The position numbers were made by a program, and so were the translations under genes. A DNA stretch of 22,205 bases, from positions 844 through 23,048 of the IMG/VR virus record IMGVR_UViG_3300030102_007520. The stretch is one strand, 5' to 3'. Each line of letters begins with the position of its first letter. Within the stretch, counting starts at the first letter, position 1. Under the pieces are notes generated by a model. It ran no database searches. It had not been told where the DNA came from and saw only the letters and a list, made by a program, of their open reading frames with translations. The stretch is from a virus. Below, one piece after another: positions 1 through 5,348 of this stretch.

Positions 1-2121
1 AATAGCTAAACTTTTTCTACCTTCTAATTGACTAAAACCAACGTTAGCCATAACAAACTCACCAAGAGTTATAGGTTCACCACTTTCTGTTTTTCTTTCA
101 GCTTGCGGGTTGTAATTTAATAATCTATCAGAAACTTCATCTATAGTTTTTTGTGTAAGCTCTGGTGATAAATTTAAGCTTCTTATATAGTTATTTATTG
201 CACCACCTTGTTCTATAACTGATTTATATACAGGGTTAAAATTTTTAGGACTTAAAAACTCTTCTTTTGTTGTAACGTTTTCAGCCATTTTGTTTATATC
301 ATCAACAAGTTTACTTCTTGACTCAACACCTTCTTCAAAAAACGCAGTACCTTCAGTAGCTCTTTTTAAACCAGTGCTTAACGCGCCTTTATGTATACTT
401 CTATTATAATCTTTTAAAAAGTTATAAGTACTTCTAGCGTTATTAAAATCTACATTAGCATAACCTAAACTAGCAAATAATCTTCTAATAAAATCTTGTA
501 TTTTTGTAAATAAAGTTTCATTAAACTTTATATCACCAGTTTCTATAGCGTCAGAAAATATAGTAAAATACTCATCAGGATTATCTAACATGTATTGTTT
601 ACTGTAAGCATCATTTATTCTTTTTTCTATAGCTGCTTCAGCTTCTGGTCCTATTATTTTTAAAAACTCATCTATAGTTTTTTGACTAATATCTGCTTTA
701 CTAGCTTTTATAATACCATGCAATAGTTCATGATTACCAGTATTATACCCTTCAATACCTTTTGTTTGTGCAACTTCTTTATTTATTATTATTTTGTCAC
801 CTATAACAAAACCGTTAGCATCTGCTCTTTCTTTACCATACTTCTCAATAATTTCATCGTTTGTTAAATCATCAATAAACTTTAAACTATATAAACTACT
901 ATGTTTTTTAGCAAAAGCCATATTAGCTTCAAACACTTCGTCAGCTTCTGCTTTTTTTACTTCAGCTACAATATCTTTATCGCTAGACAACTTAGCTTGT
1001 TCTCTAGCTATTTCTTGTTTTTGTTCAGCTTTTTTACCAACACCTGTAAAATCATTTTTTATTTTTATATTAGCAGTAGCGATATCTATTGGATCAGCTT
1101 CATCAACAAACTTTTTCATTTGTTGGTATGTTACTTTTTCTTTGTTAAGTACATATTCAGCTGGTTTTGCAGTTAAAAGCGAAAAACCTACAGTAGCGGG
1201 TGCTGTAACTGTACCTGTTATAGCTTCAAAACCTATTTCAGCCGGATCCATTTCTTGATCAGCGGCTAATCTACCAGCAACTTCACCTGTAGCTCCACCA
1301 GCAGCTTCAACAGCAGTACCAGCAACACCACCTGCAAAATAAGCCATTTTAGCGCTTCTAGCTGCACCTACTAAACCTTTTGTAGTTTGCGCTGCTTTAC
1401 CAGCTAAACCACCAGAAAGTGTTTCTATAGCACCTATAGCAATACCTCTACCTAAAGCTTTATTTCTTATTTTGTTACCTACATCACTTTGTAGTAATTC
1501 AAGTACATTTTCGTCGGTAAAAGGTTTGTTTTGTTTTTTTAACTCTTCTTCAATTAGCTCACCTAAAGTTAAAGCTGTTTCCATACCAGTTGCTAAACCA
1601 CCCATTAAACCGGCAATAGCACCTAAAGGTCCAGCAGTAAGACCACCAACTACAGCTGTACTAGCACCTGTAGCTAAAGCTTCTGGTGAATCAAAAGCTG
1701 TACCTAGTTGAGTACCTAGTGACTGTACAAAAAGCTCTGGCATTAAGCCAGGATTTTTTCTTACACCTCTAAAAAAAGCCGTCCAAGTTTTACCTTCATC
1801 ATTATATTGCTTCATAAACTTTTTCATACGTTCAGATTCAACGTATGTTTTAGCTTGTTGCTCTCTAGCTTTTATAAATTCTTGTACTGTTTGTAAATTA
1901 ACGCTAGATCCCTCTAAAAAAATATCAGCCGCTTCACCTGTAGTGCTAGCGGCGGCTATACCTCTACCTAACCAAGTTTGATCAAACCAGTTAACTTTTT
2001 CTTCTTGCTCTTGTGGTTTATCAGAATCTTTTACAGCGTTAGGAAATTTATTTAAAAAATCCTGAAGTCTATCTTGACTAACACTATATAACTGATTATT
2101 TACTTTATATATATCACTCAT
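1..2121 (-). CDS. Candidate internal/ejected virion protein with HExxH metallopeptidase domain, partial (3' end outside window)
   Basis: This frame is open for 707 codons from the ATG at 2121 to the window edge, so the C-terminus is missing. The ATG shares its A with the upstream stop (TAATG), which suggests translational coupling. Residues 1-130 are hydrophilic and helical-looking. Residues about 148-187 and 228-287 are rich in Gly, Ala and small hydrophobics (for example GGLTAGPLGAIAGLMGG), as in membrane-inserting or glycine-zipper stretches. Residues 464-468 read HELLH (bases 718-732), the zinc-binding HExxH signature. Glu517, in the context NPDEYFTIF, is a plausible third zinc ligand of gluzincin type, and a helical stretch follows it. 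Metallopeptidase domains of this style are known from large 'polyvalent' phage proteins delivered to the host. The position after the tail genes and next to two other cargo-like proteins fits an ejected protein. Peptidase activity and delivery are inference. Confidence 0.72.
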   Translation of the reverse strand, partial: MSDIYKVNNQLYSVSQDRLQDFLNKFPNAVKDSDKPQEQEEKVNWFDQTWLGRGIAAASTTGEAADIFLEGSSVNLQTVQEFIKAREQQAKTYVESERMKKFMKQYNDEGKTWTAFFRGVRKNPGLMPELFVQSLGTQLGTAFDSPEALATGASTAVVGGLTAGPLGAIAGLMGGLATGMETALTLGELIEEELKKQNKPFTDENVLELLQSDVGNKIRNKALGRGIAIGAIETLSGGLAGKAAQTTKGLVGAARSAKMAYFAGGVAGTAVEAAGGATGEVAGRLAADQEMDPAEIGFEAITGTVTAPATVGFSLLTAKPAEYVLNKEKVTYQQMKKFVDEADPIDIATANIKIKNDFTGVGKKAEQKQEIAREQAKLSSDKDIVAEVKKAEADEVFEANMAFAKKHSSLYSLKFIDDLTNDEIIEKYGKERADANGFVIGDKIIINKEVAQTKGIEGYNTGNHELLHGIIKASKADISQKTIDEFLKIIGPEAEAAIEKRINDAYSKQYMLDNPDEYFTIFSDAIETGDIKFNETLFTKIQDFIRRLFASLGYANVDFNNARSTYNFLKDYNRSIHKGALSTGLKRATEGTAFFEEGVESRSKLVDDINKMAENVTTKEEFLSPKNFNPVYKSVIEQGGAINNYIRSLNLSPELTQKTIDEVSDRLLNYNPQAERKTESGEPITLGEFVMANVGFSQLEGRKSLAI

Positions 2122-3998
2122 TACTGTTCTGTATCAAAATCTTTATTAACTGGTTTTAAATAATCATCTTGAAATAAAAGGTTTATTTCTCTAACAGTTT
2201 CCATAATAGCATTATTACCTATAGTAAAAGTTTTATTATACTTACCGTCTTTGCTTTTTATTCTAATCACGCTTTGATTAACTCTAGGGCCTAAACCACT
2301 TGTTCTACCTATAACTTCAAAACTATAATCATCTAATATATTTTTACTAAATTTACTTGTAATAAGATCTTTAAAACTTGTTGCTTTAGTATTCTTTAAA
2401 TTATTTAAACTAAGACCTCTTGTTCCTGGAGGTGGTGTGTTTTCTTCTTGTTCTACACCTGTTCTTTCGCTAGTAGCAAAATTAAATATAGAGAAAGAGT
2501 CATCATTAGCACCTAATAAACCTTCTATTTGAGCTATTTCTGAACCAGATATGTTTTCAATTATAATATCGCCACCTTTTTGATTTAAAGCGTTAGCTGT
2601 AAAAGTACCATCTTCAGCTTGCGTTATATCATAATAAAAATGTATACCAGGAAAACTTAATCTTTCTAAAAGTGCAGTTCTATTAGCTCTTTTAGCACTA
2701 CGAGCAACACGTGATTGTTGACCTACAGCGCTTGAAGGGTGACCACCAGTTTCACTATATGCAATAAAATCTTCTTTACTAGTTTTAGTAGAAGTATCGG
2801 TTGCACGTTGACTATAACCTTCTGCAAAAATAGATCTACCTTTTTCTAAAGCGTTAAATTTAAAAATTTTTCTTGTTAATTCTTCGTCTTGCATAGTTAC
2901 TATGTAATTTGCAAAACCAGCATAACCTACATTTAATTCTTCTTGAGTTAAACCATCTTTGTTTTTATCTAGTGTAGATAAAAAGTTTTCTCCAACAATA
3001 TTTATTTTTCCATCAGTGTCAGTAGGATCATAATGTCTTAATAATATATTAAAAAGTTTAGCAGAAATTACACTCTCACCCATTAAAGCTTCTTTAAAAC
3101 TTTTATTATCAAAACCATGTTTAACGTTCATTGCCCTTGCTAAAGCACCTTTAGTATTTATTATTTCATCTACATTATTTAAATATAAACCTTCCATGTT
3201 ACTACTCATAACTGAGCTTTTAGACTGTTTACCAAGTTGTAAAAATCTTTGATCAAGACTATTAAAATTTTTACCTGTAAGATTTTCTTTATCTACAGCG
3301 TTTTCACTTAAATGATTAGTAAACTGACTAAGCGTCATTGTAAAATCACTACCGTCTTGCTTTTTAACTACTTCGCCAGTTTCGTTATTTACTAAAGCAA
3401 ACTCACGTACACCGTTTTCATTTGTTCTAAAAACAGCTCTATTTTTATTTTCAGTAACTTTATTTTTATGATTTAATTTTAAAATAGCATTGACTAACTC
3501 ATTATAATGAACACTAGAAATATTAGTATCGTAGTTACCTTCTTCTATAAACTTAGCACCGTTAGCTATAGTTGCACCTATTTTTTCAATATCAGCAAAC
3601 AGCTCTTGCTGCTCCATTTTAAGCCTTAATCTTTGTCTTCTTTGTTCTTTATTTCCAAAACCAATTTTAAAAACACTTAATTTTTTTTGCTCTTCTTTGT
3701 TTTGTTCTATTTCATCAACTAAACTATTTATACCTTCGTAGTCACCGTAAAGCCCAGCTTGAGCTATTATAGAGTTTGTTTCTTGAGCATTTTGTACTAC
3801 TTCTTTAGCTAATTTACCACCTATTTCCATTACTTGACTAAAAGCATCTGCTTGCGCTTGCATTGTTTTACCATAAACAGTTGAAACACTTTGAAATATA
3901 TTTGAATAATCACCAGGAACACTTGCTAAAGAAGCTTTACTAGCTGCAGATATTAAACTAGAATCTGCTTTTGGTGTTAAAGAAAATGTTTTTGCCAT
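2121..3998 (-). CDS. Large virion (cargo-like) protein of unknown function with calcium-loop-like motifs
   Basis: This 625-residue protein begins two bases after the TAG stop of the gene before it. I do not recognise a named family. The first 150 residues are helical and rich in Ala, Gln, Lys and Glu, with a coiled-coil-like run at about 92-145. Residues 324-332 (DPTDTDGKI) and 344-354 (DKNKDGLTQEE) resemble paired EF-hand or dockerin calcium loops, but each departs slightly from the 12-residue consensus. The remainder is mixed, with a polar linker near 520-535 (EEN then TPPPG). No signal peptide or membrane helix is evident. It lies between the S74-bearing protein and the metallopeptidase protein, the position held by internal or ejection proteins in P22-like phages and by cargo proteins in crAss-like phages. 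That context suggests a virion-internal protein, but this is inference from position and composition. Confidence 0.6.
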   Translation of the reverse strand: MAKTFSLTPKADSSLISAASKASLASVPGDYSNIFQSVSTVYGKTMQAQADAFSQVMEIGGKLAKEVVQNAQETNSIIAQAGLYGDYEGINSLVDEIEQNKEEQKKLSVFKIGFGNKEQRRQRLRLKMEQQELFADIEKIGATIANGAKFIEEGNYDTNISSVHYNELVNAILKLNHKNKVTENKNRAVFRTNENGVREFALVNNETGEVVKKQDGSDFTMTLSQFTNHLSENAVDKENLTGKNFNSLDQRFLQLGKQSKSSVMSSNMEGLYLNNVDEIINTKGALARAMNVKHGFDNKSFKEALMGESVISAKLFNILLRHYDPTDTDGKINIVGENFLSTLDKNKDGLTQEELNVGYAGFANYIVTMQDEELTRKIFKFNALEKGRSIFAEGYSQRATDTSTKTSKEDFIAYSETGGHPSSAVGQQSRVARSAKRANRTALLERLSFPGIHFYYDITQAEDGTFTANALNQKGGDIIIENISGSEIAQIEGLLGANDDSFSIFNFATSERTGVEQEENTPPPGTRGLSLNNLKNTKATSFKDLITSKFSKNILDDYSFEVIGRTSGLGPRVNQSVIRIKSKDGKYNKTFTIGNNAIMETVREINLLFQDDYLKPVNKDFDTEQ

Positions 3999-4000
3999 AT

Positions 4001-4912
4001 CTATATTTGTTTAAATTCTACGTCTAATAAACTATAATCTACTCGATCGTAACCATCGACAACTGTAACAGCTTCTTTTGGAACTTCATAAGACATAACG
4101 CCTTGAAATAAACCTTTACCATATTTATCATCTTTATATTCAAAACTATATATATTTAAACCACTTGGTGATTTACCTATTTTGTTTATATTCTTTTTTA
4201 ATCTTATGTCAGAAGGAGGTACCGTAACAGCAGCTTTTGCTGCCATTGGTCCCATTATATAAGCGCCAGCAACTGCACCAATTGTACCTAAAACAGTACC
4301 GAACATTTGAGCACTTTGAGCAGCTTGTTGCCCGTACATATTAGCTGTCATACCCATGCTAGACATTTGATTAGCCATAGCTCTTTGCTCTCCTGCAGAA
4401 GCACCTGTTAAACCCGCTAGTTCCACACCTAACAAAGTAGACTCTCTACTTGCTTCTGCTTGTTGTACCATAGCATCACCTTGCCTTTGCTGTAAATCTA
4501 CAAGTGAAGCGCCTTTAGCTGCCATCATTTGATTTTGCCTTTCTTGTTGAGCTATATTTGCAGATATTTGTTGTGACTGAATAGACTGTTGGTTTGCTAA
4601 CGCTTGAGCTAAAGCAGCTATACCACTACTACCAGCAGAAGCTTGTAACTGTTGTAGTATGTTAGCTCTACTTTGAGCAGCTTGCTCTTCTCTAAATCTA
4701 GCGGCTTGCAAATCTACGGTAAAATCTTCAAAAGGATTTTCCATACCTTCAAAAGGGTTTGTAAACTTAAAAGCTTCAAACTCTTTTCTTTGCTCATCAA
4801 CTCTTTTTTGAGCTATGTCTCTTTGTTCTTTTTGATACTCAAACTGTTCTTGAGAAAGTTGATTCATCTCTCTCATAGCTTGAGCCTGTTGTTTTTTTGC
4901 TTTTTTACCCAT
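4001..4912 (-). CDS. Coiled-coil virion protein with C-terminal S74-like (endosialidase chaperone) self-cleavage element
   Basis: This 303-residue protein has three visible parts. Residues 1-50 are a charged Gln/Lys/Glu helix starting MGKKAKKQQAQAM. Residues about 65-200 are Ala/Gln-rich helix, and about 203-228 form one hydrophobic Gly/Ala segment that could enter a membrane. From Ser234 the sequence reads SDIRLKKNINKIG, the hallmark start of the Peptidase S74 intramolecular chaperone domain. The Ser234 and Lys239 spacing matches the catalytic Ser/Lys pair known for that family, where cleavage occurs just before the Ser. The element is short, about 70 residues, ending in LLDVEFKQI. S74 domains normally trim trimeric tailspikes or fibres. 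Here the rest of the protein looks like an ejection or internal protein (P22 gp7-like composition), not a fibre. The start overlaps the acetyltransferase gene by 8 bases (ATGGGTAA). Its stop is TAG, unlike the TAA of its neighbours. Confidence 0.72.
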   Translation of the reverse strand: MGKKAKKQQAQAMREMNQLSQEQFEYQKEQRDIAQKRVDEQRKEFEAFKFTNPFEGMENPFEDFTVDLQAARFREEQAAQSRANILQQLQASAGSSGIAALAQALANQQSIQSQQISANIAQQERQNQMMAAKGASLVDLQQRQGDAMVQQAEASRESTLLGVELAGLTGASAGEQRAMANQMSSMGMTANMYGQQAAQSAQMFGTVLGTIGAVAGAYIMGPMAAKAAVTVPPSDIRLKKNINKIGKSPSGLNIYSFEYKDDKYGKGLFQGVMSYEVPKEAVTVVDGYDRVDYSLLDVEFKQI

Positions 4913-5348
4913 TTTGTTTTTGTATATTATTTTTTAAGTACTTAAAACCTTCATATTCTACAGGTATCATTATCCAGTTTAAATCGTGGTGTAATTTTGA
5001 CATGTGTTTATCACCGCAAACTGTAAAAAGCTGCATAATACCTTGTTTTTCAGCTTCTTTTTCTACTTTTTGTATTAAAAGTTTTATTAAATCTTTTCTG
5101 TCTTTTTCTTTATACTTAGGATTAGATATTAAATAAGTTGCCCAACCTACTGTTCTTGGTTGCATTATAAATAAAAAATAACAAGCAACAACTACATTAT
5201 TTTTTTCTATAACAAAACACCTTTCATCTTCTGGTAAAAACGCTCTAGGTACTGGACCTTGACCGTTTCGCCACCACCATTCCCACCATTCGCAACACAA
5301 CTCATAATCACCTTTTTTAAAAGATCTAAAAGTTACATTATTGTTCAT
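4905..5348 (-). CDS. GNAT-family N-acetyltransferase
   Basis: This 147-residue protein has the size and layout of a single GNAT domain, which moves an acetyl group from acetyl-CoA to an amine. The central part runs from a beta strand (CFVIEKNNVVVACYFLF) to a conserved segment with an Asn-Pro-Lys turn (TYLISNPKYKEKDRKDLI). This is followed by the long helix expected to sit beside the CoA pyrophosphate. The N-terminus carries an unusual tryptophan cluster (WWEWWW, residues 21-26), followed by a Pro/Leu/Glu-rich turn (PRAFLPEDERCF). I recall this layout from acetyltransferases in other marine phage structural blocks. The substrate cannot be read from sequence; a neighbouring virion protein or a host target is possible. 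The last 8 bases overlap the next gene. The leader is A/T-only (AAATATAATTAA before ATG). Confidence 0.78.
   Translation of the reverse strand: MNNNVTFRSFKKGDYELCCEWWEWWWRNGQGPVPRAFLPEDERCFVIEKNNVVVACYFLFIMQPRTVGWATYLISNPKYKEKDRKDLIKLLIQKVEKEAEKQGIMQLFTVCGDKHMSKLHHDLNWIMIPVEYEGFKYLKNNIQKQNG

Follow-up and report, generated by a model that had tools for sequence, protein, structure and literature searches.

What does the truncated giant gene at one edge of this virus record encode, and if its product is a peptidase, what would that peptidase cut? The window, meaning the whole stretch of DNA analyzed here, is 22,205 nucleotides long and consists of bases 844-23048 of the 23,048-base virus record IMGVR_UViG_3300030102_007520. 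Two adjoining genes at its low end are the starting point:

1..2121, minus strand: N-terminal 707 codons of the giant-protein open reading frame (ORF), with ATG at 2121 and open to window base 1
2121..3998, minus strand: gene for a 625-amino acid (aa) protein, directly upstream of the giant gene; its positional equivalents in phages phi18:3 (gp121) and phi40:1 (gp100) are virion proteins detected by MS/MS

The original prediction had described a frame open to the low edge that carries HELLH at residues 464-468 and a candidate third ligand, Glu517. The frame was confirmed and these residue numbers were exact. It had also pointed to the sequence past the low edge. There, just below window base 1 and inside the giant gene, lie 10 N (an assembly gap, nominal in length) at record bases 834-843 (L003), followed by 276 further open codons up to the record end. 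These codons match the stretch directly after the peptidase domain in the giants of eight relatives; therefore, the giant gene appears to continue across the gap and to be truncated by the record end. On this match, the 276-codon tail is very probably part of the same gene as the window ORF. The full ORFs of relatives are 2118-3710 aa long and, by comparison, the window ORF covers at most the N-terminal third of a giant protein.

The giant gene closes a portal-capsid-muzzle block. The upstream order on the same strand is terminase, portal, an acidic protein, capsid, several virion proteins, an 1837-aa muzzle-type protein, smaller proteins, the 625-aa protein and the giant gene. The match of the muzzle-type protein to crAss_MUZ_C (E 0.001) was below the Pfam cut-off. 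By portal identity, the nearest isolates were MW202828 (55%), Maribacter phage Panino (48%) and the Flavobacterium elemo phages (Elemovirus, 45%), followed by Cellulophaga and Tenacibaculum phages of Pervagoviridae and Pachyviridae. Judged from its sequence, the window comes from a marine phage whose relatives include crAss-like and Cellulophaga phages.

For both the 625-aa protein and the giant, the gene at the equivalent position in phi18:3 and phi40:1 is annotated, on MS/MS evidence, as encoding a virion protein. The "cargo position" assigned to the window protein by the original prediction is supported by this synteny, although the MS/MS-detected giants (phi18:3 gp123 and phi40:1 gp101) are without HExxH, and no homology to them was detected for either the window peptidase domain or the C-terminal block described below. 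The window giant is probably packaged in the virion.

Two other genes of the block deserve mention. A 303-aa protein (4001-4912, minus strand) has an independent glycine-zipper hydrophobic stretch at residues 200-228 and, directly after it, a Peptidase_S74 chaperone-of-endosialidase domain just below cut-off (residues 234-277); it is a candidate small membrane or pore protein. Within the same structural block, 4905-5348 (minus strand) encodes a GNAT-type acetyltransferase (Pfam Acetyltransf_1, above cut-off), and MW202828 has an acetyltransferase-annotated gene at the equivalent place.

The putative peptidase of the giant protein has the following parts:

292..984, minus strand: zincin-like metallopeptidase domain, residues 380-610, as defined by a 26-sequence alignment (A1) and an AlphaFold2 model
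718..732, minus strand: HELLH, residues 464-468, with predicted ligands H464 and H468 and general base E465; invariant in 26/26 and 57/57 sequences
571..573, minus strand: Glu517, the putative third ligand for zinc; unchanged in all sequences of both sets (26/26 and 57/57) and aligned to the Glu of NEFMAW, itself invariant, in N4-type virion RNA polymerases (vRNAPs)

Any HExxH arose by chance in 0.16% of trials in shuffles of the window ORF. A tblastn search of phage records with the window ORF gave no match, and a single-protein scan of viral contigs with this ORF gave no relative; for contig scans with the zincin alignment, the alignment was too divergent. The route to relatives was to locate the muzzle gene in IMG/VR and then read downstream of it. 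The domain was present in 25 other giants at very different positions (E < 1e-40 after iteration). The mean column identity of the resulting alignment was 30%, and its sole invariant columns were one Gly, H464, E465, H468 and E517. A second set of 80 giants, sharing few records with the first, was collected via the C-terminal block and not via the zincin. The window-type zincin was carried by 57 of them, and the two His and both Glu were kept in all 57 domain copies, as fitted to the zincin profile.

The original prediction had suggested a profile search and a structure prediction as checks on its zinc peptidase, and each gave a mixed answer. Pfam, NCBIfam and PHROGs gave the domain no name: Pfam had no above-cut-off match in the 26 zincin domains, and a PDB sequence search with the zincin profile had no match. 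On the positive side was an alignment in register with the zincin of N4-type vRNAPs, as explained below. ATLF (E 0.037), TBPIP and LPD38 were below cut-off and were set aside as identities of the domain. AlphaFold2 on the 26 sequences gave a confident model (pLDDT 83.9, pTM 0.75), in which HELLH lies within one helix (82-94) and Glu517 begins a later helix (138-148), while Foldseek found no PDB match for it at E≤0.001. The top rows of the VIA structural list were mostly zincins, largely Glu-zincins, at weak scores (Z 3.2-3.8, rmsd 3.7-5.7). The best viral structural matches were giant phage proteins, including the elemo structural protein.

With its ligand set invariant, HELLH and Glu517 on separate helices of the model, and zincins dominating the low-Z fold neighbours, the assignment of the domain as a zinc peptidase is well supported, as the original prediction had proposed. 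It would be a Glu-zincin with H464, H468 and E517 as ligands and E465 as base, and the conservation of these residues leads us to infer that it is catalytically active.

For the comparison with N4, a single-sequence profile was uninformative and nine aligned N4-type vRNAP zincins were used instead. Hhalign matched the window zincin to them (55.6%, E 1.2e-4), and the two His and the third-ligand Glu were all in register. Column shuffles gave nothing better than E 0.17, and column shuffles and decoys scored far lower. Block shuffles that kept HExxH came close (score 36 vs 40), so most of the signal in this match is the active site.

A C-terminal block of 890 aa is common to nearly all full-length relatives of the first set; in it, HAD-like motifs (DFDDT, LTAR, DD) are followed by a long conserved helical part. 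The block had no PDB match by profile and no Pfam match above cut-off; DUF2608 appeared only below cut-off. Its alignment (A2; L096:1796-4465 and relatives), HAD-phosphatase-like in its motifs, is represented in at least 556 IMG/VR stretches.

In the second set, HExxH was found in 72 of the 76 giants with a complete N-terminus, one each save for a single giant with two. Across all 80 giants, 73 were observed against 1.1 expected from shuffled sequences. Seven of the 80 were without HExxH, three of them cut; L132, L150, L167 and L191 are family giants with a complete N-terminus and without any HExxH. These complete giants, together with those of phi18:3 and phi40:1, indicate that the wider group can do without the peptidase. 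Sixteen giants had other HExxH domains, which formed three further clusters (8, 4 and 4 members). Other-cluster zincins, for example those in the N-terminal half of L142, L164, L147 and L154, read HELQH/HELGH, HEVGH with FLEE, or HEVGH with DEY.

The zincin type changes at least 19 times on the C-terminal-block tree, near the mean of 22.3 in shuffles. By these comparisons, the peptidase is kept while its sequence cluster is exchanged. We read a zincin that is kept but swapped in type as a sign of a generic task of the giant protein, be it self-processing or delivery, more than of a fixed host substrate, although effectors also show rapid exchange.

The part of the giant protein upstream of the zincin is the other recurrent element:

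988..2019, minus strand: N-terminal helical module, residues ~35-378, common to ~30 relatives and phage MW202828 (phrog_32588 match, 1.7e-29)
1561..1686, minus strand: glycine zipper, residues 146-187, nearly uncharged, with a small residue at 155/159/163/167/171/175/179/183 in ≥85% of relatives
1390..1458, minus strand: second conserved Gly-spaced hydrophobic helix, residues 222-244 (G226, G230), from Kyte-Doolittle analysis and alignment
1261..1332, minus strand: third conserved Gly-spaced helix, residues 264-287 (G275/276, G279, G283), from alignment

The Gly/Ala-rich hydrophobic regions noted upstream of HELLH by the original prediction are real: Kyte-Doolittle analysis placed them at residues 148-190, 222-244 and 298-318. 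Its description of them as membrane-active-looking holds as a sequence pattern, with a small residue at every fourth position from 155 to 183 across 27 aligned sequences. The pattern was absent from shuffled giants. The zipper has, as a family average, 0.2 charged or polar residues per 19-mer, and its family-average hydropathy peak is only 1.23, below the usual transmembrane thresholds. In an AlphaFold2 model of residues 30-610 (pLDDT 71 overall), the N-terminal module is helical and the zipper part is of low confidence (pLDDT 42-88). The best structural rows for the zipper region were Tim17-family membrane proteins (Z 5.0-5.8, ~5 angstrom rmsd), namely a complex I subunit, taken to be NDUFA11, and a TIM23 core chain. 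This modelled Tim17-family likeness is a lead, not proof. The giant of MW202828 (L088:42-11621; 3859 aa) contains HEFGH twice and, in its N-terminal part, a related Gly-rich module.

All 24 second-set giants with the zipper module had the window-type zincin, as against 33 of the 56 that do not have the module (Fisher p 8e-5, with no correction for the relatedness of the sequences). The strict zipper pattern was found in 17 of the 80 giants, 16 of which had this same N-terminal module; a general requirement for a glycine zipper in giants was therefore rejected.

The explanation that we tentatively prefer is that the window encodes the N-terminal part of a packaged giant from a marine podovirus of the Bacteroidota type, and that the zincin of this giant is active and processes mainly the giant itself or its ejection partners. 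The giant would be packaged in the virion and ejected at the start of infection. Cleavage by the zincin, inside the capsid or once the tail has been passed, would divide the giant into functional parts. The N-terminal glycine-zipper module would stay in the envelope and the downstream enzymatic and C-terminal parts would be released by the cleavage. Sequence supports the conserved domain with its ligands, the zipper module, the pairing of this module with the zincin and the context of a giant gene, whereas we infer the catalysis, the action in cis, its timing and the membrane insertion.

Self-processing is favoured because HExxH is near-universal (72/76) while its bearers fall into four clusters with about 19 exchanges, as if activity were kept while the clade changes. 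The invariant H, E, H and E, the confident domain model with its mostly zincin neighbours, the register match to N4, the pairing of zipper and zincin and the MS/MS-detected positional equivalents speak for it as well. Among the roles proposed for the MPTases of polyvalent proteins, autoprocessing before or after delivery is the favoured one, the other being host cleavage (PMC5512222). Against self-processing, the N4 vRNAP, which has been studied more than any other protein with such a domain, is packaged uncut (PMC5512222), module exchange is also seen in host effectors, four complete giants are without HExxH, and the 24/24 pairing was drawn from related sequences.

The original prediction had read the protein as one that is injected with the DNA and cuts a host target or opens a path through the envelope. 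The synteny supports the cargo-like gene position in this reading; the host or envelope role fares less well, with the exchange of zincin types arguing at least equally for self-processing. As an injected effector, the zincin would cut a specific host protein, such as a defence, transcription or envelope factor. The cargo-type gene position agrees with this, as do the frequent exchange of zincin types, which resembles that of arms-race modules, and the substrate-specific Glu-zincins among its distant low-Z fold neighbours; host cleavage is also one of the roles named in PMC5512222. However, nearly all giants keep a zincin whatever its clade, where one would expect freer gain and loss of host-specific effectors, and no hint of a substrate was found. 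An effector, like the envelope device described next, is a main rival of self-processing, although we regard it as somewhat unlikely.

Alternatively, zipper and zincin together might form an envelope-entry device, in which the zipper helices form or line a channel and the peptidase clears an envelope protein. The conserved and almost uncharged zipper, its Tim17-family structural rows and its constant association with the window-type zincin are in line with such a device. The 33 giants that have the zincin without the N-terminal module, the low hydropathy peak and the low confidence of the zipper model are not, and make it quite improbable. A role for the zincin in assembly, as a protease acting in trans to mature capsid or scaffold proteins, is very improbable: the zincin does lie within the structural block, where no other protease was recognised among the scanned window genes, but it is embedded in a giant protein, and relatives with HExxH-less giants still make virions. 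That the domain is a catalytically dead structural remnant can be practically dismissed, for although zincin activity is a prediction, the catalytic and ligand residues are invariant in an alignment of such low average identity.

The preferred explanation of self-processing can be extended to the family in a form that is speculative and, as a whole, unlikely. Giant ejected proteins of this kind may have a protease slot that must hold one zincin and accepts unrelated clades, in about one-third of cases as a cassette with a glycine-zipper membrane module, and ejection may be completed by self-cleavage that leaves the zipper as a translocon. The divergent zincin cluster, its pairing with the glycine zipper and the conserved but swappable slot appear to be new.

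No module is commoner in giant injected phage proteins than the zincin, and PMC5512222 leaves undecided whether zincins cut the phage protein that carries them or a host protein. A group of several hundred members, with its slot kept and the occupant swapped, and with a cultivated elemo relative that has the domain, makes this question testable. The pairing with the glycine zipper is a lead on how Bacteroidota podoviruses move large proteins and DNA through two membranes.

Among known systems, the cultivated relative is the Flavobacterium phage elemo giant (QMP84709, 3694 aa), annotated as a structural protein without a stated experiment. It occupies the same gene position and has a related zincin at residues 1458-1650 (E ~1e-7, HEIFH), but an A2-type C-terminal block was not detected in it, and the test used showed no glycine zipper. 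In the crassvirus phicrAss001, the ejected cargo proteins gp45-gp50 are in the capsid and tail (PMC10172136). The window giant gene, which follows a muzzle-type gene within a structural block of crAss-like type, resembles that setting by position, and no RNA polymerase was found in the window-group giants scanned. A crass-type RNA polymerase motif (DxDGD/DFDID) was sporadic in the giants, one each in L093 and L099, and not conserved.

The N4-type vRNAP (Schitoviridae gp50) is a giant virion protein, as the window giant is predicted to be, with one zincin around residue 2228, in the part C-terminal to the polymerase; like the window giant, it is preceded by smaller virion proteins. Its HELVH and downstream Glu are in register with HELLH and E517. 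In the window group, however, the zincin is N-terminal of a conserved C-terminal block that differs from that of N4, and related giants scanned with Pfam/PHROGs had no T7-like RNA polymerase domain, the window protein itself being truncated. We therefore do not class the window protein as an N4-type vRNAP.

Zincin MPTases are a hub domain of giant injected "polyvalent" proteins and are always fused to N4-like RNA polymerases (Iyer et al. 2017, PMC5512222). No Pfam polyvalent-domain model was above cut-off in the 26 zincin domains or the scanned giants and blocks, although some published clades may lack Pfam models. In the window group, unlike polyvalent proteins, the partner modules (the glycine-zipper module and the C-terminal block with HAD-like motifs) are not recognised families, and the zincin slot has at least four sequence clusters. 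The likenesses are a giant modular protein of 2118-3710 aa in relatives, encoded with late genes beside packaging and structural ones (terminase, portal, capsid and muzzle), and a recurrent zincin with the HExxH and Glu layout. The HAD-like motifs in the C-terminal block of relatives may mark a second biochemical domain beside the zincin (DUF2608 below cut-off). By these sequence features, the nearest known kind of protein is the polyvalent or N4-vRNAP-type MPTase protein.
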